A stretch of DNA of 64,000 nt, taken from the IMG/VR virus record IMGVR_UViG_3300017987_000009, positions 27,589 through 91,588 of that record, one strand, 5' to 3'. Every line of letters starts with the position of its first letter. Position 1 is the first letter of the stretch. This document shows, one piece after another, positions 1,937-28,900 of the stretch. The notes under the pieces are model-generated. The model was not told the DNA's origin and did no database searches. It saw nothing but the letters and a program-made list of their open reading frames with translations. This DNA is from a virus. Both the position numbers and the translations under genes were made by a program.

Positions 1937-3103
1937 ATGACCGTACCCCGAGACATCTACGACTTCTTCATCGAGCCGATCCGGCGCGAGGACCAGCGCA
2001 AGGGGCACCAGTTCCTGCAGCGTTACCTGCGCGGGCACCAGCACGTGTGGGAGACGCTGCACGAGAAGATCCACTCGGTCACGGACCTCTGGTCGGTCGA
2101 GGACTGCCCGGACGAGCAGCTGAAGTACTTGAAGTGGATCGTCGGCTGGACGAGCGCGCTCGACTACGTCACGCGGGAGCTAGGCTTCGACGAGCTGCGC
2201 CGGCTGATCTCGATCTCCGGCCGGCTGTGGAAGGAGCGCGGCGCGGAGAGCGCGATCGTGGACGTGATGTTCTTCGCCACCGGGGCGCGCAACCGGACGT
2301 GGAACTGGTTCGACTTCCGCTGGATCGTCGGCGAGACGTCGCTCGCGGAGGACCACCAGGGGTGGGACCCTTGGATCGTCGGCACGGACGAGGAGACGGA
2401 GTCCAACCTTCGCATCGTCGACGATGGCGCGCTGAACCGCGCCCTTGTGGCCAACCTCCTCAAGCTCATGCGGGCGGCTAACGAGAAGTGGGAGATCACG
2501 TACCTGCACTTCCTCGACCAGTTCCTGCAGGACGGCGACATTACCCAGTGGCGTGTCGACGCGACCGACTGCCCGACGCTCGCCGTAGAGGGCGGCGTCA
2601 TGTCTATGACCGACAGCTCCCAGGTCGAGCGGACACGCGCCGCCGCCGGGACGTTCGGCAACGAGTTCTCCGCGTTCTTCCGACTACGCGGCGTCGGCAA
2701 CACGACCAAAGGCTTCGGCTTCGAGTGGAATGTGGACCCGACGTCCGGGGTCGGGCGGTACTTCGCGCGCTGCGCGCCGGGGTCGAAGAAGATCAGCTTC
2801 TACTACATGAGCGGGGCGACGCCGGTCTGGTTCGGCGAGGCGAACCTGGCCGGGGAGGCGTACTACGGCCGCGTCTGGTACGGCTACCGCGTCACCTCCA
2901 CGATCGAGGAGACGACGAAGCGGCGCTTCCGGGTCTACCTGGACGGGTCGCTCGTGTTCTCGTTCCTCTGGACTACCGCGCCTCACTCGGGCGGCACAAT
3001 CGGTGTCTTCCACGAGGACGCTACCAACCGTTACGTGGAGTGCAGCGAGGCGGAGGTGGCGAGGCTGCCCGCCGACTACGACTACATCGGCATCAACCCG
3101 TAG
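1937..3103 (+). CDS. Tail protein I-like baseplate/fibre-adaptor protein with C-terminal lectin-like domain
   Basis: The N-terminal half (about residues 1-200) is helical and Trp-rich. It carries the tail protein I pattern LWxVEDCPDEQLKYLKWIVGW, here broken up as LWSVEDCP, then LKYLKWIVGW, then a segment on 'KERGAESAI', seen in baseplate proteins that join the wedge to the fibre. The C-terminal part (about 205-388) is rich in Gly, Tyr, Phe and beta-prone sequence and resembles a concanavalin-like carbohydrate-binding sandwich; that part is inference. It starts 3 bases after the baseplate J stop and is followed 9 bases later by the fibre gene, with AGGAGACGACG as the ribosome site for that gene. 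The 388-residue length exceeds the roughly 180-200 residues of a bare tail protein I, consistent with a fused extra domain. Confidence 0.7.
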   Translation: MTVPRDIYDFFIEPIRREDQRKGHQFLQRYLRGHQHVWETLHEKIHSVTDLWSVEDCPDEQLKYLKWIVGWTSALDYVTRELGFDELRRLISISGRLWKERGAESAIVDVMFFATGARNRTWNWFDFRWIVGETSLAEDHQGWDPWIVGTDEETESNLRIVDDGALNRALVANLLKLMRAANEKWEITYLHFLDQFLQDGDITQWRVDATDCPTLAVEGGVMSMTDSSQVERTRAAAGTFGNEFSAFFRLRGVGNTTKGFGFEWNVDPTSGVGRYFARCAPGSKKISFYYMSGATPVWFGEANLAGEAYYGRVWYGYRVTSTIEETTKRRFRVYLDGSLVFSFLWTTAPHSGGTIGVFHEDATNRYVECSEAEVARLPADYDYIGINP

Positions 3104-3112
3104 GAGACGACG

Positions 3113-4987
3113 ATGGCGACAAAGAATGAGTACACCAATATAATCCTCAAGCGGCTGCTCGATTGGGACCACCTCGGGGCCTACCTCTTCGACTACATGA
3201 TGGACGAGCTGCGCGCCGCCTTCGCTCGCGTCTACGACAAGGACGGCACGTTCGGCAGCACGAAAGTCACGATCGCGGCGAGCGGCAACGATGAGTTCGA
3301 TCTGTCGTCGCAGCAAGGGACCGACGGGCGAGGCTGGTTCCTGGAGAGCGGGCTGCTGTACAGCTCGGTCGACTACGAGCAGAACGTGCCGTTCGAGAAT
3401 ACCAACACCGTCATCTATGACATCGGCCTTCGGCGCGCCCTTGTGCCCATCGGCGTTCACAACGGCTCGCGCTCTGGCGTGCCGGAGTACAAGCGGTGGC
3501 AGGAGCGCATCGGGAAAGTCGGAACCCCCGACAGCATTGGCACCGGTCTCTCGTCCAACGTGTACCTCAACCTCCCCGCCTCCATCTGCGACAACGACCG
3601 CACGCACGCTGGCCGGAAGGTCTTGGCGTGGAAGGTCGACCCGCTGTCGAGCGAGGAGGCCGTCGCGATCCAGTTGCTCACCGTCGAGTTCACGGGCAGC
3701 GTGAACCGCGTTCTTTCCAACGACTTCTTCGGAGGCGACTCGAAGGACTCCACGGCCGCGAACTACCGCGTCTGCCTTCTCGGCCCGCGCGTGACGCGGC
3801 AGAGCGAGACGCCGCTCCAGAGCGAAAGCAACACGTGGTATGTGGGGCAGATCGTCGGCGCCGGGGCTGGCAACCCGCCGACAAGCCCTTCGGTGGCAAA
3901 CCAGCGGTTGATCGAGTACTCGCTCTCCGACTGGATCGCGCAAGTGGACACGAACAAAGCGCTGTCCGAGGGGAACTTCGGCGTGCGGCAAGCGGCGTCG
4001 ATCGGCAACTGGTTCCTCGGCGCCGAGGCCGCGTCCGGCGGCGACTACAGCGCGAACGACGCGGCGGGTGGTCGCACCGGTAGCGCCACGACCGCTGGCG
4101 GGACTTACTGGGTCGTCGTCGGCGACGACGACGGGTCGGACGCTTTGTTGTTTTACTCGAACCGCGGACGCGAGTGGACGGAGAAGGCGAACCCGAAGGC
4201 GTACGACCTCAACGGCGTCGTCTACGATCCCTCCAACGACATCTGGATTTCCGTTGGCGACGCAGACGGCGCCGACGCTTACATCATCACATGTCCGTCG
4301 TCGCCGAACCAGACGTGGACCGAGCGCGCGAACGCCAAGAACGTGTCCCTGAACAAGATCGCCACGGACGGTTCGGGCACCTCGATCGCGGTCGGCGCGA
4401 ACGACGGTTCGGACGTCTACGCGTTGAAGACGACGAACGGCACCTCGTTCAGCGAGCTGTCCCTCGGCGGCTCTGGAGACGTCGGCAACGACATTGCCTA
4501 CGGCGAGCCGGGCGGCGTGCCGACCTGGGTGGTCTGCGGGCGGAACGGTTCGACGCCGAAAGTTTGGTACAGCATTGACGGCGGTTCGTCCTGGAGCTCG
4601 GCTACCGTGCCGGGGTCCTTCGCCGACCCGTGCAAGACCATTGCCTGGAACGGGCGCAAGTTCGTGGTCGGCGGCGACAGCGGCGACATGATGAATAGCG
4701 CCGACGGGCAGACTTGGGCGTTCATCCACGACCAGTGGGGCGACCTCAACAACGTCGAGGGCGACACGCTGAACCATGTATTCCTCGGATCGACCGGTGC
4801 GCAGTTCTTCGCCTCGCTTGACGACGGCGACACCTGGCAACGCTTGCCGCACTATCCGCATCGGGCGGGCGACGAGACGAATGCCCCGGCGCGCGTGGCG
4901 CATGACGGCTACGCGTGGCTCGGCTACGAGGTGGACTTTACCGACGACAAGCTCTGGACGGCGTTCTCGGGCAACACGAACTTCTAA
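3113..4987 (+). CDS. Tail fibre / receptor-binding protein with BNR-type beta-propeller
   Basis: The first 300 residues have the composition of a fibre shaft or attachment region and match no enzyme I recognise. From about residue 315 to the end there are repeated blades in which a WVVVGDDDG/WISVGDADG/FVVGGDSGD strand is followed by an Asp-box-like turn such as SIDGGSSWSS or SLDDGDTWQ. These are the features of a sialidase/BNR-like beta-propeller, seen in sugar-binding tail tips. No catalytic sialidase arginine triad is evident, so a binding role is more likely than cleavage. Its position after tail protein I and before the lysis genes is typical for an adhesin. Confidence 0.7.
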   Translation: MATKNEYTNIILKRLLDWDHLGAYLFDYMMDELRAAFARVYDKDGTFGSTKVTIAASGNDEFDLSSQQGTDGRGWFLESGLLYSSVDYEQNVPFENTNTVIYDIGLRRALVPIGVHNGSRSGVPEYKRWQERIGKVGTPDSIGTGLSSNVYLNLPASICDNDRTHAGRKVLAWKVDPLSSEEAVAIQLLTVEFTGSVNRVLSNDFFGGDSKDSTAANYRVCLLGPRVTRQSETPLQSESNTWYVGQIVGAGAGNPPTSPSVANQRLIEYSLSDWIAQVDTNKALSEGNFGVRQAASIGNWFLGAEAASGGDYSANDAAGGRTGSATTAGGTYWVVVGDDDGSDALLFYSNRGREWTEKANPKAYDLNGVVYDPSNDIWISVGDADGADAYIITCPSSPNQTWTERANAKNVSLNKIATDGSGTSIAVGANDGSDVYALKTTNGTSFSELSLGGSGDVGNDIAYGEPGGVPTWVVCGRNGSTPKVWYSIDGGSSWSSATVPGSFADPCKTIAWNGRKFVVGGDSGDMMNSADGQTWAFIHDQWGDLNNVEGDTLNHVFLGSTGAQFFASLDDGDTWQRLPHYPHRAGDETNAPARVAHDGYAWLGYEVDFTDDKLWTAFSGNTNF

Positions 4988-5004
4988 CTCGGCAAGGAGG
5001 CTTC

Positions 5005-5670
5005 ATGAGCAACGCGATCATAGTCAACGGGAAGTGCTATCCGGTGAACGTGCCGGTGAAGCTGTGGGACGAGACGGGGCTGGAGGTCGTACCGTGGCGC
5101 GGCGCCCGCAAACGCCGTCGCTCGATCACCGTCGGCGTATGGCATTGGACCGGCGGGGAAGGAGGAGCGGCCGGACTGTTCCGCGTCCTTCGCAACAAGG
5201 GGTACGGCGTCGAGTTCTACATCGACCAAGCGGGAACCATCTGGCAGTTCTGCGATCCCGCGCTCGTCGACACCTTCGATGCTGGGTGGATGAACTCACG
5301 CTCGTTCGGCGTGGAGATCGCCAACTACGGCTTCCGACGTCGCGGCGTGCTGCCGCCGAAGAGGGGACGAGGGCGCCCGACCTACCTCTGCAAGCTCAAC
5401 GGACGGCGCCGGGAGTTCGCCCACTTCTGGCCTGCGCAGTTCGCCGCCGCGATGGCGCTGGCCGACGCGATGTCCAACGCGTGTCCGGTGCCGCGCAGCG
5501 TGCCGACGATCGGCGGGCAGGTGGTCAACCCGAACACCCTCGAACCGGAGGAGGCGCAGCACTTCGCCGGACACCTCGGCCACTTCCACATCACCAAGCG
5601 CAAGAGCGATCCGGGCCTTGACCTGCTCTCGATGTTCGCCGCGCAGTTCGCCCAGACCATTAGGAGCTGA
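5005..5670 (+). CDS. Endolysin, N-acetylmuramoyl-L-alanine amidase (Amidase_2 type)
   Basis: This 221-residue protein has the peptidoglycan-recognition/amidase_2 fold pattern: VGVWHWTG gives the first zinc-binding His, the GVEFYIDQAGTIWQF strand-turn-strand follows, and GHFHITKRKSDPG supplies the late His and the acidic/catalytic residues. It would cut the bond between muramic acid and the stem peptide during lysis. I chose the ATG at 5005 because AAGGAGG at 4994-5000 lies just upstream; longer in-frame starts fall inside the fibre gene. No cell-wall-binding domain and no signal peptide are visible, so export should depend on a holin, perhaps one of the two membrane proteins just downstream. 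Confidence 0.88.
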   Translation: MSNAIIVNGKCYPVNVPVKLWDETGLEVVPWRGARKRRRSITVGVWHWTGGEGGAAGLFRVLRNKGYGVEFYIDQAGTIWQFCDPALVDTFDAGWMNSRSFGVEIANYGFRRRGVLPPKRGRGRPTYLCKLNGRRREFAHFWPAQFAAAMALADAMSNACPVPRSVPTIGGQVVNPNTLEPEEAQHFAGHLGHFHITKRKSDPGLDLLSMFAAQFAQTIRS

Positions 5671-6515: not shown

Positions 6516-7007
6516 ATGCCCGCGCACGACTCGCAGTACCCGGACGAGCACAAGCCGCGGTCGTTCCGCGTGGACCCGTCCGGCATCTCCATGAACTGGC
6601 GGTACACGTCGGTGGCCGTCGGGGCGATCTTCGCCGCGTTCGCCGGGACCGGCGGCTACGCCTCCTTCCGGCTGGTGACCGAGGCGCAAGTGAACCAGAA
6701 GATCGTCGCCAGCGAGAGCAGGACCACCAGGGAGGTCAAGGCGGTGGACGACAAGGTCGAGGTGCTCAAGACCGAGATCAGCGGGCCCGCCGGGCTGAAG
6801 GCGACGATCGGCGACCTGCAGCACGTCCAGCACAGCGACATCGCGATCCGCGAGGCAAGGCGCGTGGTCGACGAGGAGGTCGCGTGCCGGCGCAACGACG
6901 ACGAGTGCCAGGAGCGGAAGGACTACCAGCGGGAGCGGCTGCGCCGGACGAACATGGAGCGGCTGAAGAACAAGCGGGAGCCGTGCGCCTCGCTCGTATG
7001 CGACTGA
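6516..7007 (+). CDS. Single-TM coiled-coil membrane protein (Rz-like candidate)
   Basis: This 163-residue protein has a short basic N-terminus, one membrane segment (about residues 28-50, ending GTGGYASFRL), then a long charged coiled coil and three cysteines towards the end. A membrane anchor with a periplasmic coiled coil is the general design of inner-membrane spanins, but there is no overlapping lipoprotein gene, so this is a weak inference. The gene starts 3 bases after the preceding membrane protein and is the last of the lysis cassette; a new promoter follows at 7046. Confidence 0.5.
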   Translation: MPAHDSQYPDEHKPRSFRVDPSGISMNWRYTSVAVGAIFAAFAGTGGYASFRLVTEAQVNQKIVASESRTTREVKAVDDKVEVLKTEISGPAGLKATIGDLQHVQHSDIAIREARRVVDEEVACRRNDDECQERKDYQRERLRRTNMERLKNKREPCASLVCD

Positions 7008-7022
7008 GCGCGGGGAACCGGG

Positions 7023-7063
7023 TGTCCTGACGCCGGAGTTCCGGGTACAATACCCGGACGATG
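7023..7063 (+). promoter_or_regulatory. Probable leaderless promoter with palindromic operator over its -10
   Basis: A TACAAT -10 box at 7046-7051 lies in the loop and right edge of a perfect 7-bp inverted repeat, CCGGGTA (7041-7047) and TACCCGG (7051-7057). The expected transcription start is within a few bases of the helicase ATG at 7061, and no Shine-Dalgarno sequence is present, so the message is probably leaderless. The -35 region is poor, as in many GC-rich hosts or activator-dependent promoters. Confidence 0.55.
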
Positions 7064-9526
7064 GCGACGCTGACAGTAGACAACAGGCACGCGTACGTGG
7101 AGGGCGCCCCGCTCCACGCGCAGCGCGCGATCGCGCGCGAGACCAGCTACCTGCAGGCCGGGTACAAGCACACCGCCGGGTTCAAGACGAAGCGGTGGGA
7201 CGGCAAGCGGAAGCTGGCGTCGATGCTGAAGGACGGGCGAATCAAGGTCCCGGCCGGGCTGGCGCAGGCGGTGGCCGACACGCTGTGCGACGAGGGCGTG
7301 CCCGTGCGGACGGTCGACGAGCGCCGCCGCCAGGAGCGCAGCGTGGCCTACGGCTGGGACCCGGGGTGCTCGCTGCGCCCGTACCAGGAGCGGGCGGTCG
7401 CGCTCGCGACGACGCCGCGCGGCACGCTCGGCCTGGTCGGCCGCGGGATCCTGAAGCTGCCGCCGCGCAGTGGCAAGACGCTGGTCACCGCCGCCATCGT
7501 CCGCGAGCTGGGCGCCCGCGCGCTGTTCATCGTCCCGTCAAAGTACCTGCTGCACCAGGCGAGGGCCGCCATCGGCGACGCGCTCCAGGCCGAGGTGGGG
7601 CAGGCGGGCGACGGCGAGTGGGAGCCGCGCGACGTGACGGTCGCGACGGTACAGACGCTGTGCAGCCGGCGCGGGAAGAACACCAAGAGGGAGCCGGCCG
7701 CGCCGGAGTACACCGAGCTGCTCGCTCGCTCCGACCTGGTCGTGTTCGACGAGTGCTTCCCGGCGGGGACCATAGTCGGCGACAAGCGAATCGAAAAGAT
7801 CCGAATCGGGGACGAAGTCCCGTCCTTCGACGAAGGTAGCCGACGAGCAGTGAGCGGGCGGGTCGTACGCCTGTTCAAGAAGCGGTGCGTCGAGTTGGTC
7901 AGGGTTCGTTTTATCTGCGGGAGGTCGCTGGTCTGCACTCCTAACCACCCCTTGTACTCGTCGCGCGGGTGGGTCCGCGCCGACAGCTTGACTGAAGGAT
8001 CGGAGGTGCTGCGTGTCGATGACAACGATGGCGTGCACCGGCTGCGGACAGCCGGTGATCAAGACCAGAAAGAGACCGACCGCCTATTGCGAAGCGTGCC
8101 AGGCGGCGCGGCGATTGGCCCGGCGAAAGAAGGTCCAAACCGAGTGCGCCTGGTGCGGGGCGCAGATCCAGTTGAGCGGGCGCCTCGGTCTGCAAGCGGC
8201 GAATCGGGGACGGGGGTACTGCTCGAAACAGTGCAAAAAGAAGTGGATGAAGCGGCGCTGGTCGGAAACGATGGCGGCGACGAACCGGAAGCACGCGTCA
8301 GCTCGGATGAAGAAGAACAACCCGTCAAGGAGACCGGATGTGCGAGCGAAGATATCGCGAACGCTGCGACTCATCGGACACCGTCCGCCGTGGACCGGCG
8401 GCAAGGGGCGAGGGACGACACGACCGCAGCGAGCGCTTCTAGCGGCGCTAACGAGAATCCAAGACGGGTGGACGGCCGAGCTGCCGATCGGCGTCAGAGG
8501 AGTCTCGGGGCTACCGAGGTGCGTCTACGTGGACCTGGCGCACGAGGCGAGCAAGACGGCGGTGGAGGTGGACGGCGGAAGCCACTGCACGCTCAAAGCT
8601 CAAGCGTCGGACCGGAAAAAGGAGCGGTTCTTAGCTGGTCGCGGGTGGACCGTGTTGAGGTTCTCGAACCGGGAAGTGACGGAAGGTTTGGAGGCGTGTG
8701 TCCGGACGGTCACGTCTACAACCTCGAAGTCGACCGGTTCCACACGTACACGGCCGACGGCTTCGTAGTCCACAACTGCCACCACCTCTCGTCCGACGAG
8801 TGGCGCAAGGTCGTGCGCGAGAGCGACGCGCCGTACAAGATCGGGCTGAGCGCGACCGCGTTCGTCGACCGCGAGGAGGAGGCGGAGCTTGGCGTGATCT
8901 GGCTGCGCGCCTGCACGGGCGAGGTCCTGGTCGACCTGTCGTGCAGCGACCTGATCAGGCAGGGCTACCTCGTCCGCCCGGAGATCCGCGTCCACGCGAT
9001 CCGCGAGCCCGACCTCCGGCGGCGCGGCTGGAGCACGAAGCTGCACCGCGACGCGATCTACAGGAACGAGCACCGCAACCGGAAGATCGCCGAGCTCGCG
9101 TGCGGGCACGCGGCCGCCGGCCGGCGGACCGTCGTCGTCACCAGCAGGCTCGAGCAGGTCGGCGCCATCACGCGCTTGCTTGGACAGACGCGTGTCCGCT
9201 TTGCGCGCGTGGTCGGGCAGACGCCTCAGTCGACACGCGACCGACAGGTCTCGCGCCTGCGGCGCGGCGAGCTCGACGCGCTCGTCGGCACTGTGCTGGA
9301 CGAGGGCGTCGACATCCCCGAGGTCGACGCGGTGGTCAACGCCGAGGGCGGCGCCGACGACAAGACCACGTACCAGCGCCTGCGCTGCCTGACGCCGCAC
9401 CCAGGCAAGGCGCGCGCGTACGTCGACGACTTCGTCGACCTGACGCACCCGTACTTCGCGGCGCACTCGCTCAAGCGGCTGGCCGTGTACCGGTCCGAGC
9501 CCGAGTTCCGCGTCGCGGTCCGCTGA
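7061..9526 (+). CDS. UvsW-like SF2 DNA helicase interrupted by an intein
   Basis: The 821-codon frame encodes a superfamily 2 helicase of about 480 residues once the 341-residue intein is removed. Visible helicase motifs are Walker A LPPRSGKT (residues 133-140), the Walker B/DECH box, split exactly by the intein (DE|C...N|CHH at residues 230-232 and 573), motif III LSATA (about 596) and the C-terminal lobe GTVLDEGVDIPEVD. T4 UvsW and relatives unwind branched DNA and turn origin-initiated into recombination-dependent replication. Motif VI, normally QRxGRxxR, reads QRLRCLTPHPGK here: one residue is missing and the last Arg is Thr, so the arginine finger may be impaired. The gene has no ribosome site and seems to be read from a leaderless promoter. 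Confidence 0.88.
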   Translation: MATLTVDNRHAYVEGAPLHAQRAIARETSYLQAGYKHTAGFKTKRWDGKRKLASMLKDGRIKVPAGLAQAVADTLCDEGVPVRTVDERRRQERSVAYGWDPGCSLRPYQERAVALATTPRGTLGLVGRGILKLPPRSGKTLVTAAIVRELGARALFIVPSKYLLHQARAAIGDALQAEVGQAGDGEWEPRDVTVATVQTLCSRRGKNTKREPAAPEYTELLARSDLVVFDECFPAGTIVGDKRIEKIRIGDEVPSFDEGSRRAVSGRVVRLFKKRCVELVRVRFICGRSLVCTPNHPLYSSRGWVRADSLTEGSEVLRVDDNDGVHRLRTAGDQDQKETDRLLRSVPGGAAIGPAKEGPNRVRLVRGADPVERAPRSASGESGTGVLLETVQKEVDEAALVGNDGGDEPEARVSSDEEEQPVKETGCASEDIANAATHRTPSAVDRRQGARDDTTAASASSGANENPRRVDGRAADRRQRSLGATEVRLRGPGARGEQDGGGGGRRKPLHAQSSSVGPEKGAVLSWSRVDRVEVLEPGSDGRFGGVCPDGHVYNLEVDRFHTYTADGFVVHNCHHLSSDEWRKVVRESDAPYKIGLSATAFVDREEEAELGVIWLRACTGEVLVDLSCSDLIRQGYLVRPEIRVHAIREPDLRRRGWSTKLHRDAIYRNEHRNRKIAELACGHAAAGRRTVVVTSRLEQVGAITRLLGQTRVRFARVVGQTPQSTRDRQVSRLRRGELDALVGTVLDEGVDIPEVDAVVNAEGGADDKTTYQRLRCLTPHPGKARAYVDDFVDLTHPYFAAHSLKRLAVYRSEPEFRVAVR
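7754..8776 (+). other. Intein (Hint domain) in the helicase Walker B motif
   Basis: The intein begins at Cys232 (CFPAGTIV, block A) and ends with the HN dipeptide of FHTYTADGFVVHN (block G), followed by Cys+1 of the host protein. Block B is VCTPNHPLYS (TxxH motif) and block F/G starts near 8636. The two Hint halves total about 140 residues; between them (about 8040-8635) the intein frame translates into low-complexity, charged sequence with no recognisable endonuclease. The reason is that the same DNA codes for a nuclease in the +1 frame. Insertion in an ATPase Walker B motif fits known intein biology, where conserved active sites are the usual targets. Confidence 0.85.
8013..8768 (+). CDS. 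Homing endonuclease (DUF559/Vsr-like) nested out of frame inside the intein
   Basis: This 251-residue protein is encoded in a different frame from the intein that contains it. It starts at GTG 8013 (or ATG 8019) behind its own GGAGG at 8002-8006. Domains in order: two zinc-finger-like units (CTGCGQP...YCEAC and CAWCGAQ...YCSKQC), a helical DNA-binding NUMOD-like segment (MKKNNPSRRPDVRAKIS), then a PD-(D/E)XK core with VYVDLAHE, TAVEVDGGSH and GWTVLRFSN, as in DUF559/Vsr-related homing nucleases. It would cut intein-less helicase alleles so that the intein is copied in. The core region 8636-8707 overlaps the intein C-terminal splicing block, so these bases specify conserved motifs in two frames. 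The last 18 residues look like read-through of the intein frame. Confidence 0.82.
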   Translation: MSMTTMACTGCGQPVIKTRKRPTAYCEACQAARRLARRKKVQTECAWCGAQIQLSGRLGLQAANRGRGYCSKQCKKKWMKRRWSETMAATNRKHASARMKKNNPSRRPDVRAKISRTLRLIGHRPPWTGGKGRGTTRPQRALLAALTRIQDGWTAELPIGVRGVSGLPRCVYVDLAHEASKTAVEVDGGSHCTLKAQASDRKKERFLAGRGWTVLRFSNREVTEGLEACVRTVTSTTSKSTGSTRTRPTAS

Positions 9527-9535
9527 GCTTTCCTG

Positions 9536-9565
9536 TTTACTCCGGCCGGCCGGCGGCGGTATTAT
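9536..9565 (+). promoter_or_regulatory. Upstream promoter of replication-initiator operon
   Basis: TTTACT (9536-9541), an 18-bp spacer and TATTAT (9560-9565) form a plausible sigma70-type promoter just after the helicase stop. It lies 23 bases upstream of a second, better-spaced promoter. Confidence 0.4.
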
Positions 9566-9582
9566 ACCGGCTCGCGCGCTGT

Positions 9583-9611
9583 TTGGAGAAGAACGGGAAC
9601 GTGCCTACAAT
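9583..9611 (+). promoter_or_regulatory. Main promoter of replication-initiator operon (TTGGAG-N17-TACAAT)
   Basis: The -35 TTGGAG (9583-9588) and -10 TACAAT (9606-9611) are separated by exactly 17 bp. The -35 is identical to that of the speD-like promoter at 31912, also with a 17-bp spacer. The predicted start near 9618 sits immediately before a 12-bp inverted repeat, so the transcript would begin with a long stem. Confidence 0.6.
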
Positions 9612-9620
9612 CAAACTACC

Positions 9621-9699
9621 CCCGCCCCTCGCGGCAGTTAGACCGGTTCCGGTTGGTCCCGGGTCCCGTTCTTCGGCTGCGCGCGAAGCGAGGGGCGGG
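9621..9699 (+). repeat. Perfect 12-bp inverted repeat in the 5' leader
   Basis: CCCGCCCCTCGC (9621-9632) is the exact reverse complement of GCGAGGGGCGGG (9688-9699). The 55-base interior holds a further palindrome, ACCGG-TT-CCGGT, near 9642-9653. The stem ends 13 bases before the GAGGAGGTG ribosome site of the next gene. It could stabilise the message, control translation, or mark a replication start. The whole 9527-9724 gap contains only these promoters and this structure. Confidence 0.6.
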
Positions 9700-9724
9700 C
9701 GGCTCCAACTCGAGGAGGTGGGAC

Positions 9725-10033
9725 GTGGCTAAGCGCAAGCGGCCGGACGAGTGGGTCCGGCTGGACGAGGCGTACGACGCGCTGACGCGAGAGGCGTACG
9801 CGGTGTGGGTCAGGATGATGCTGGTGCCGTCGTCGTCGCTGGAGGGCGCCGGCCTGGCTGGGCTCGCGCGGGTGTTCCGGTACAAGGAGCGCGGGTTCCG
9901 CGAGGTCCTGCGCGAGCTGCGCAACAAGGGGTACCTGCGAGTGGTCACCCCGCCGCGGCCGGGGCAGAAGGCGGCGATCGAGATCGTCAAGAAGCCGGTG
10001 CTGGTCGGCGCTGACAGGTTCGTCAGGTTCTAG
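9725..10033 (+). CDS. Small winged-helix protein
   Basis: This 102-residue protein starts at GTG 9725, 4 bases after GAGGAGGTG. Residues about 12-75 (DEAYDALTREAYAVWVRMM ... FREVLRELRNKGYLRVV) have the pattern of a small winged helix, with a recognition helix and a wing strand as in MarR/replication-protein modules. It immediately precedes the replication initiator-like gene, suggesting joint action at an origin or self-regulation through the structured leader. The family is not identified further. Confidence 0.6.
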   Translation: MAKRKRPDEWVRLDEAYDALTREAYAVWVRMMLVPSSSLEGAGLAGLARVFRYKERGFREVLRELRNKGYLRVVTPPRPGQKAAIEIVKKPVLVGADRFVRF

Positions 10034-25973: not shown

Positions 25974-28900
25974 CGGCTCGGAAGAAGAAGGCTGGCGCGC
26001 ACACGTACCGCGCGCTGTTCACCGCGGACTGGCAGCTGTGCAACTCGCTGCCGCACTCTAAGCCCAGGTCGCTCGACGCGGAGCTCTCGGCGAAGCCCGG
26101 ACTGACGGACAGGTTCTGCGACCAGCTCGACGTTGTCGCGCAGATCGAGGTGCTCGCGCAGAAGGAGAAGGTCGACGCGGTGTTCTTCCTCGGGGACCTA
26201 TTCGAGAAGTCGCTGCTCGACGCGGTCACGCTGACCCACGGGGTCGGCGCCGTCGTCAACCTGTCGAAGGTCTGCCCGGTCTACGTCCTGCCCGGGAACC
26301 ACGACGCGCACGGCTCGGCCGGCGTGCGGTTCACGCCGGAGGTGTTCGACGAGATCGGCGCGGACATTAAGTTCCTCGGAGGCAAGGAGGTGCTGCGCCC
26401 GAGCGGGCAGGTCAAGGTCGCGTTCCACCCGCTGCCGTGGCGCCCGCCTGGCGAGGTGATGCCGAGGGTCGAGGACTTGCGCGCGGCGGCGAAGAAGGGC
26501 GAGACGAACGTCCTGCTCCTGCACAACAGCGTCGTCGGCTGCCGGCACCAGGGCTGGGTGTGCGACGACGGCGTCGACGCGGAGCGGCTGTGCGTCGGGT
26601 GGGAGCTGGTCCTGGCCGGGCACTTCCACGACCCGCAGCGGTTCGGCGAGTCGGTTCCCGGCCGGTACGTCGGCGCCCCGATGCAGCACGACTTCCGCGA
26701 TGCGGACTCGCCGGATCGCGGGGTGTGGATCTACGAGTTCGAGAAGGGCGGTCAGTTCAACGGCAAGTTCCACGAGCTGGAGTCGCCGAAGTTCCACATC
26801 GCGAAGTGGGAGCTGCCGCACCTGGTCGAGTGCGCCGAGCAGGCGGATGAAGGCGACTACATCCGAGTGGTCGCGGAGATGACGCACTCCGAGTGGACCG
26901 CGATGTCGAAGGAGATCGAGGTCCGGTGCAAGGAGCTGGCGGACGAGCGGAACGTCCGCGTCCTGCCGCTGCACAAGCCGGTCTACCACCACGAGGTCCG
27001 GCTTGACACGGACGGCGGGGTAATCTTGCCGGAGGAGGCCGTGTCGAAGTACCTGGCGATCGCGAATACCGACGGGCTGAGCGACGACAAGCTGAAGGAG
27101 ATCGCGCTCGGCGCGCTGCGGGAGGTCGGCCGCAACGAGCCGGGCGCGGCGATGGGCGCGGCTGCGAACGTCGTCCACCTGAAGGCCACCGACTTCTGTT
27201 GCCTCAAGGAGGTGTCGCTCGGCTTGTACCGGATCGGCTTGGTCCTCGTCATCGGCGAGAACCGCGACACTGACGCGGCCGATAACAACGGCGCTGGCAA
27301 GTCCACGATCTTCAAGGCCGTGACGTGGTGCCTGTTCGGCGAGACGATCGACGGCGACCGGTACGACGAGGTGATCCGGTGGGGCGCCAAGCGGGCGGAG
27401 GTCGCCGTGCTGCTGGCCGCGGGCGACGAGACGTGGATCGTCCGGCGCTGGAGGACGAAGGGCAAGCCCGGCCTGTCGCTCCACATCATGCGGTCGAAGA
27501 AGGACGGCGAGCGCCGCGTGTCCACGGTCGAGGAGCCGTGGCCCGGCGACACCAAGGCGGTGCAGGCCAAGGTCGTTGAGCTCGTCGGTCTGGATTTTCG
27601 CGGCTTCTGCAACACGGTGCTCTACGGCCAGGGCGACGTCGACAGGTTCTTCTCGTCGACGGACACGGCGCAGAAGGAGACGCTGCACCGCGCGCTCCGC
27701 ACCGACGTCTACCGCAAGGCCGAGCTCTGGCTGCGCGACGTCCTGAACAAGTCGCTTAGGCCGAAGGTCGAGGGCGCCCAGCGCGACCTCGACAAGGCCG
27801 ACGCAAGGTACGAGGAGCACGACGTCGAGGAGATCGAGCGCGCGTTCGACGAGTGGGAGGCGGAGCACGACCGCGAGGTCAAGGAGAGGGCCGACGAGGT
27901 CATCGACCTGACGAGGCGCGCGCGCGCCGTCGACGACGCCGCAGCGGCGAGGCGGGAGGAGCTGGAGGCCGAGCGGGCCGAGCTCGAGGCGGCGCTCGCC
28001 GCCGCCGCCGAGAAGGACGCCGAGCTCGACAAGGTGGTCGGCCTGCGGGAGGAGGCGCAGGAGAAGCTGACCGCCGCCGGCCGCGCGCGCAACGCGAAGG
28101 ACGAGGAGCTTAAGTCCGCGCAGCGCCAGCTCGCCCTCCTAGACGGCGACAGATGCCCGACCTGCACGGCGCCGCTCGCGCGCGGCGCGCCGGCCAAGTT
28201 CGCCAAGCAGCTCAAGACGCGGAGCGGGCAGCTGGCCGGCGAGCTCGAGGCCGCGAGCATCGAGGTCGAGCGGCTGGACGGCGAGGTCGAGCGGCTGACG
28301 AGGGAGCGCGACGGTATCCGCGACTGGCTCTACGAGAACGCCGTGCCCGACGGCAAGCTAGCCGACGTGAAGGCGGACATCGCCGCCCTGGGCGCGGAGG
28401 CCAAGACGGAGAAAGCCTCGCTGAAGCGGCAGGCCGCCGAGGCGCTCGCCGCGGCGGGGGCCCTCGCGAAGAAGGAGAACCCGCACAGGCGGTCGCTCGA
28501 CCAGGCGCACGAGCGCGCGAAGGAGCTGTCGCGCCTGCTCCACGAGGCGACGTCCAAGCGCGACGCGGCGCAGCTCGACGTGGCGCACCACGAGTTCTGG
28601 GTGCGCGGCTTCGGCGTGCAGGGCCTGCCGTCGATCCTGCTGGACGGCACGATGCCGTACCTGACGGAGCGCGCGAACCACTACCTCGAGACGCTGTCGG
28701 ACGGCGACATCGCGGTCTGCTTCGACACGCAGCGCGAGCTGAAGTCGAAGAAGGGCGAGAAGCGCGACGAGCTGGAGATCGCGTGGACGATCGAGGGCGT
28801 GCCCGGCGCGACGCCGAGCAACGGGCAGAAGCGGAAGCTCGAGGTCGCAACCGACCTCGCGCTGATGGACCTGGTCTCGTCGCGCGAGGGCGAGCTCGAC

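Follow-up and report, generated by a model that had tools for sequence, protein, structure and literature searches.

A nuclease gene nested out of frame within an intein of a viral helicase gene

A stretch of 64,000 nucleotides (positions 27,589 to 91,588 of the record IMGVR_UViG_3300017987_000009, a 91.6-kb virus), referred to here as the window, carries a helicase gene interrupted by an intein, and the bases for the middle of this intein encode a nuclease in the +1 frame. The arrangement is best explained as a mobile intein with a separately translated, overprinted homing nuclease of the EDxHD/DUF559 type, a reading to which we assign a probability of about 0.87. Throughout the family both frames are conserved and selected, the phase between them is constant, folds are predicted for both products, and three allelic states are distributed over one insertion site. 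Protein splicing, internal initiation of translation, cleavage at the DECHH codons and homing are suggested by the sequences.

The host gene is an ORF of 821 codons on the forward strand (7061–9526), as are all features of the element described below, and was assigned to SF2 helicases by its ResIII and Helicase_C domains (Pfam) and by the PHROG annotation "DNA helicase". Its frame remains open through an intein of 341 amino acids (7754–8776, 1023 nt), which lies in the Walker B motif FDE/CHH (the slash marks the insertion point) and has the termini CFPAGTIV...FVVHN/CHH. Cys1, the TxxH motif, the penultimate His, the terminal Asn and the +1 Cys are all there, and in the 41 members compared C1, T62, H65, H340, N341 and +1 C342 were invariant or nearly so. 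PT-HINT and Intein_splicing were the Pfam matches to the insert in the helicase frame. AlphaFold modelled residues 1–90 and 291–342 with confidence and the region between them as disordered (block means 41–55). The N-terminal splicing part (residues 1–90, 7754–8023) has a predicted, ordered Hint fold with a block pLDDT of 95–98 and Foldseek matches to inteins, and the C-terminal part with blocks F and G (residues 291–341, 8624–8776) reaches about 94–98 and has nearly invariant columns; the ends superpose on the Mtu RecA and Ssp DnaB inteins with an rmsd of about 1.6 (probability 1.00). The intervening passenger linker (residues 91–290, 8024–8623) is stop-free, has a pLDDT of mostly 41–55, diverges most at host codon position 1 and evolves as the nuclease's shadow. 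Empty alleles in Vibrio phages, with exteins 97–99% identical, show that the host protein also exists without this in-frame insertion. The first-pass annotation, which had been made from the window alone, was therefore right that the DECH box of a helicase gene is split by an intein with intact ends. It had also stated that the overlap obliges the host frame to stay open for 1023 bases; the frame is indeed open throughout, but this length is that of the whole intein, and the overlap with the nuclease gene comprises 756 nt including the stop codon.

The nuclease gene (8013–8768) encodes 251 amino acids in the +1 frame, starting with GTG at 8013–8015 (alternatively ATG at 8019) and ending with TAG at 8766–8768, inside the host codons for VV of FVVHN. 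The product contains zinc-finger-like Cys pairs (C45/C48...C70/C74, 8145–8234) in invariant or nearly invariant columns, which probably bind DNA. The catalytic core (8532–8669) matched Pfam DUF559 with an E-value of 4.5e-10 and 39.8 bits against a curated cut-off of 20.6, and the same profile was matched by all 11 members of set A1. Residues D174, E185, D187, H191, D200, W212, R216 and N219 are invariant. The AlphaFold model of the window's nuclease frame was confident nearly throughout (mean pLDDT 91.8), and its top Foldseek match was the homing endonuclease I-Bth0305I (PDB 3r3p; probability 1.00, with a modest E of 4.5e-3). Similarity to this enzyme at the sequence level is marginal (E 0.11–0.16), and the invariance of the acidic and histidine residues D174, E185, D187, H191 and D200 does not imply a residue-by-residue equivalence to its catalytic residues. 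The description of the product as a zinc-finger/NUMOD/DUF559 nuclease, as initially proposed, was thus confirmed for DUF559 and for Cys pairs of the zinc-finger type, but not for NUMOD, for which no Pfam match up to E=0.1 was reported in the nuclease. In all eight GenBank phage regions examined (L002–L009) only the helicase-intein coding sequence is annotated and the overlapping nuclease gene is not.

A candidate internal ribosome-binding site, GGAGG at 8002–8006, precedes the GTG at 8013 with a spacing of six bases and a predicted anti-Shine-Dalgarno pairing energy of -9.0 kcal/mol, so the coordinates originally given for this site and start codon were correct. Shine-Dalgarno-like sites were enriched family-wide at start codons near the nuclease N-terminus when compared with extein draws matched for the number of start codons. 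The best start per locus reached -5 kcal/mol or lower in 65% of cases vs 29% of the matched draws, and individual start codons did so in 36% vs 13% (p=7e-10, with codons within one locus not being independent). Some members have no clear Shine-Dalgarno site near the nuclease start, and other modes of initiation or frameshifting may operate in these.

As the host frame could be open by chance, synonymous codons were redrawn from local usage with the nuclease protein held fixed. For the window alone 2.05 host-frame stops were expected and P(0) was 0.11, a weak result owing to the GC-rich sequence. Homologues were then considered, which had been collected by tblastn against phage records and by pattern-plus-tblastn scans of IMG/VR and GTDB contigs, giving 106 loci with a family-level match. 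The searches relied on nuclease motifs only, and the sample is therefore not biased towards an open host frame; its IMG/VR part consists of the best 80 of 290 relatives, so that all counts describe the closest part of the family. Generic DUF559 proteins (L107–L119, HMM score below 70) lack the nesting and were treated as a separate group outside this sample. In this sample, 104 of the 106 loci were nested out of frame, always with the nuclease in +1 relative to a stop-free host frame, and shared the insertion motif as well as nesting and phase. The remaining two (L073 and L078) are free-standing nucleases, and no in-frame fusion of nuclease and intein was found among the 106. The arrangement that defines a canonical homing intein, a nuclease fused in frame between the splicing blocks, was thus replaced by the +1 frame in 104 of 104 nested loci. 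Automatic recognition succeeded for both intein ends in 100 of these; two of the other four reach a contig end, and L086 and L088 show DE/CFPAGT...VHN/C by eye.

At 90% identity, 78 nested loci remained out of 80. Among the matches listed, these 78 non-redundant homologues were expected to contain 832 host-frame stops and contained none, whereas the third remaining frame had 1123 stops vs 816 expected. A chance open frame, possible for the GC-rich copy in the window, was hence rejected by the family. The same constraint is visible at single bases: T at nuclease third positions, where it would be synonymous but create a host stop, occurred in 0 of 2921 cases and elsewhere in 2819 of 8300. The +1 nesting was found in isolated and sequenced phages (Corynebacterium phi673, Vibrio CP-T1/24 and K391, and Pseudomonas MR14) and in the Ktedonobacter racemifer genome. 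Recurrence of the overlap in dozens of divergent viral and bacterial genomes points to an old and maintained architecture and not to a damaged gene. Elsewhere in the window, an antisense open frame of 739 amino acids (2684–4903, minus strand) lies opposite the ORF at 3113–4987, which is probably a composition effect of GC-rich sequence.

Substitution patterns at codon positions in both frames, which had been suggested as a check, were analysed in related loci, taken as 13 disjoint pairs. For host codon positions 1/2/3, the N-extein diverged by.246/.156/.544, the N-intein by.209/.146/.415 and the last 63 nt of the intein by.055/.029/.287. In the nuclease core, whose third codon positions are the first of the host frame, the values were.395/.181/.145. 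The pattern recurred in 97 pairs, which share members. It leads from the host frame to the nuclease frame and back, with switches at the predicted borders, and therefore indicates that selection acts on the nuclease in the middle of the element and on the intein at either end, each frame being selected where predicted. Between 140 and 64 nt ahead of the end of the intein, the nuclease frame shows less synonymous change (0.159 instead of 0.363; Fisher p=2.8e-11), which agrees with a second role of these bases in specifying intein residues. The two AlphaFold models are ordered together only over about 8624–8735 (about 110 nt), where intein strands 292–304 and 320–326 overlap a nuclease strand (213–218) and two helices (219–224 and 226–241). 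Dual-coding bases in the C-terminal splicing block had been proposed for 8636–8707; an overlap exists there, but its extent according to the models is slightly wider.

Evidence for mobility was obtained from Vibrio phages, using the spliced K391 helicase as query. Among exteins that are 95–99% identical, three states were found at the same DE/CHH codons: an empty site in phages 234P10 and 141O35-1, a mini-intein of 150 amino acids without nuclease in K389, K453 and PS65A.1 (helicases 95–98% identical to that of K391), and the nested intein of 356 amino acids in K391. The more distant phage 13VV501A (about 80%) has a mini-intein too; the four mini-intein loci L121–L124 correspond to K389, K453, 13VV501A and PS65A.1. 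These mini-inteins retain the CFPAGTL, CTxxHP and YNFAVEDLHTYVANGVVVHN-like blocks, and by eye they also appear to retain the strand before block F (RVKSARYV), which the automatic alignment did not pair and whose counterpart in nested members is the dual-coding strand. Its apparent preservation in inteins without a nuclease suggests that this strand is a requirement of the intein and not a shadow of the nuclease. In view of their difference from the nested intein, the mini-inteins may represent a related lineage, not a recent deletion product.

In 260 of 278 locus pairs with a nuclease identity of at least 50%, similarity was higher between the nucleases than between the spliced host proteins (for example 60% vs 23%). 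Host proteins are mostly SF2 helicases, and two are DnaX-type clamp loader subunits (L104, 2837–4795; L105, 2525–4918), in which the nested element is again located at the Walker B Asp-Glu. The element thus seems to move between proteins that share little but the Walker B ATPase motif. In both loci with a free-standing nuclease (L073, region 3358–5626; L078, region 4084–5608), the nuclease gene lies immediately upstream of a helicase without intein and overlaps its start. The helicase of L073 has DEAH at the site, and a frameshift interrupts that of L078 exactly at the target codon, which holds the intein in other loci. Possibly DEAH is a resistant target and the frameshift a repair scar, or, in the case of L078, an assembly error; the arrangement fits a nuclease that targets the site from a neighbouring position. 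In the midpoint-rooted nuclease tree the two copies form one clade with biased composition, which does not polarise free-standing vs nested forms. A further locus (L019, 1931–6442) has apparently two inteins in one helicase ORF, one of conventional type whose LAGLIDADG nuclease is in frame (Hom_end_hint, LAGLIDADG_3) and one of the nested out-of-frame type.

Other explanations were weighed against this evidence. Frameshift damage or a sequencing error in an intein that once carried its nuclease fused in frame would start from the canonical intein architecture, and the window alone (P=0.11) would be compatible with it. The first-pass annotation had itself named such +/-1 indel damage, or homologues fused in frame, as grounds for abandoning a separate overlapping gene that keeps the host frame open. 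Neither was found: one phase is common to 104 of the 106 loci, shared by isolated phages and K. racemifer, while the other two are free-standing and none is fused, and both frames are selected in the expected places with zero host stops. Damage is ruled out by this family-wide conserved phase, its probability being negligible, and the separate overlapping gene originally proposed is supported. Equally improbable is a group I or group II intron that is spliced as RNA and open in the host frame by accident. Intron nucleases are usually separate ORFs, but both ends of the element have the conserved catalytic residues and fold of an intein, at no point is the host frame interrupted, and Rfam gave no match in 6800–9800 up to E=1, so that an intron was ruled out. 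A split intein in a fractured gene was ruled out by the single ORF at 7061–9526.

Two further possibilities are unlikely but deserve somewhat more attention. Ribosomal frameshifting of the helicase precursor, instead of internal initiation, would produce a non-splicing fusion of N-intein and nuclease, and in many members the nuclease frame indeed extends open upstream of its start, by a few to dozens of codons; those members without a clear Shine-Dalgarno site would also agree with it. In the window, however, a nuclease-frame stop precedes position 7992, the GGAGG and GTG are well spaced, and the family-wide enrichment at the nuclease start favours initiation, which makes frameshifting an improbable general route. 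With a similarly small likelihood, the nuclease might today mainly exclude competing phages or protect its locus, with little homing. Cutting of competitors would fit the free-standing copies beside the intein-less helicases with DEAH or an interrupted target codon, whereas the three states among near-identical Vibrio helicases and the spread between unrelated host proteins look like homing. Homing and exclusion of competitors are not mutually exclusive.

According to the preferred reading, a mobile intein with an overprinted nuclease gene, the helicase precursor would be translated straight through in the host frame, and the two ordered intein ends would fold into a Hint domain and splice themselves out. 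As composition and divergence show, the middle is a disordered linker with the absence of stops as its sole requirement. The nuclease would be translated from the same mRNA by internal initiation at GTG 8013 behind the GGAGG. Intein-less alleles are its predicted targets, with a cut in or close to the Walker B codons for DECHH, as the distribution of occupied and unoccupied insertion sites suggests, and repair from the occupied copy would install the whole element, in line with its spread. The approximately 110 shared nucleotides specify the C-terminal splicing strands together with the last strand and helices of the nuclease.

Individual features of this element are known from other systems. 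In 2009, Dassa et al. reportedly described fractured genes in which a nuclease ORF separates the two halves of a split intein, along with a new nuclease family said to be related to EDxHD. Such genes resemble the element in the window in the separate ORF between N- and C-intein parts but have the host gene broken in two, whereas the host here is one uninterrupted frame. I-Bth0305I (EDxHD, 3r3p), the best structural match, has a phage-associated homing fold with a possibly comparable acidic motif; it is not known to be nested in an intein. Homing group I introns likewise combine a self-splicing element with a separately translated nuclease, but the present element is predicted to splice as a protein, and its nuclease gene must leave the host frame open throughout. 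In the literature searched, no out-of-frame nuclease within an intein was described, although prior mention is possible; a 2025 preprint by Gosselin et al. reportedly deals with inteins of 'non-canonical architecture' in actinobacteriophages, perhaps including similar cases. Conventional homing inteins carry the nuclease as an in-frame domain of the same polypeptide (PMC3943268). PI-SceI and PI-PfuI (LAGLIDADG or HNH type) share with the element in the window the splicing blocks around a nuclease and the insertion into a conserved motif of a DNA-processing enzyme, but here the nuclease is a second, overlapping gene. Architecturally, the nearest published precedent is the ShiLan domain of phage methylases, in which an HNH gene is concealed out of frame (PMC11855218). 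This insertion can likewise be read through in the host frame, encodes a nuclease of homing type with a GTG start in another frame, has a disjunct distribution and is disordered in its host-frame middle, but it differs by its HNH nuclease, another relative frame and no detectable ribosome-binding site. It lacks a splicing domain, its authors having found neither an intein nor an intron, and the insert is thought to remain in the protein (PMC11855218), whereas the element in the window has a complete Hint intein, a DUF559 nuclease and Shine-Dalgarno-like sites.

Tentatively, and with the odds rather against so broad a view, these elements might form an ancient, widespread and overlooked class of mobile inteins with a +1-overprinted nuclease. 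Its short dual-coding stretch would link residues of the nuclease with those for splicing and, as a natural case of genetic entanglement between a selfish and an essential host gene, would help to prevent nuclease decay. By the accepted division, intron nucleases are translated free-standing and intein nucleases as fusions (PMC3943268). This family fits neither category, as the nuclease gene of its inteins lies over the host frame and is probably translated separately, in the manner of intron nucleases. As the nuclease gene was unannotated in all GenBank regions examined, intein surveys may count nested elements as large inteins with an unknown middle. With a core of about 600 nt in each of the 78 non-redundant members, the family provides a large, replicated natural case of long overlapping genes, by which overprinting, gene birth within mobile elements and nuclease decay become open to real statistics, and in the Vibrio phages one helicase is available in its empty, mini and full forms for direct tests of homing.
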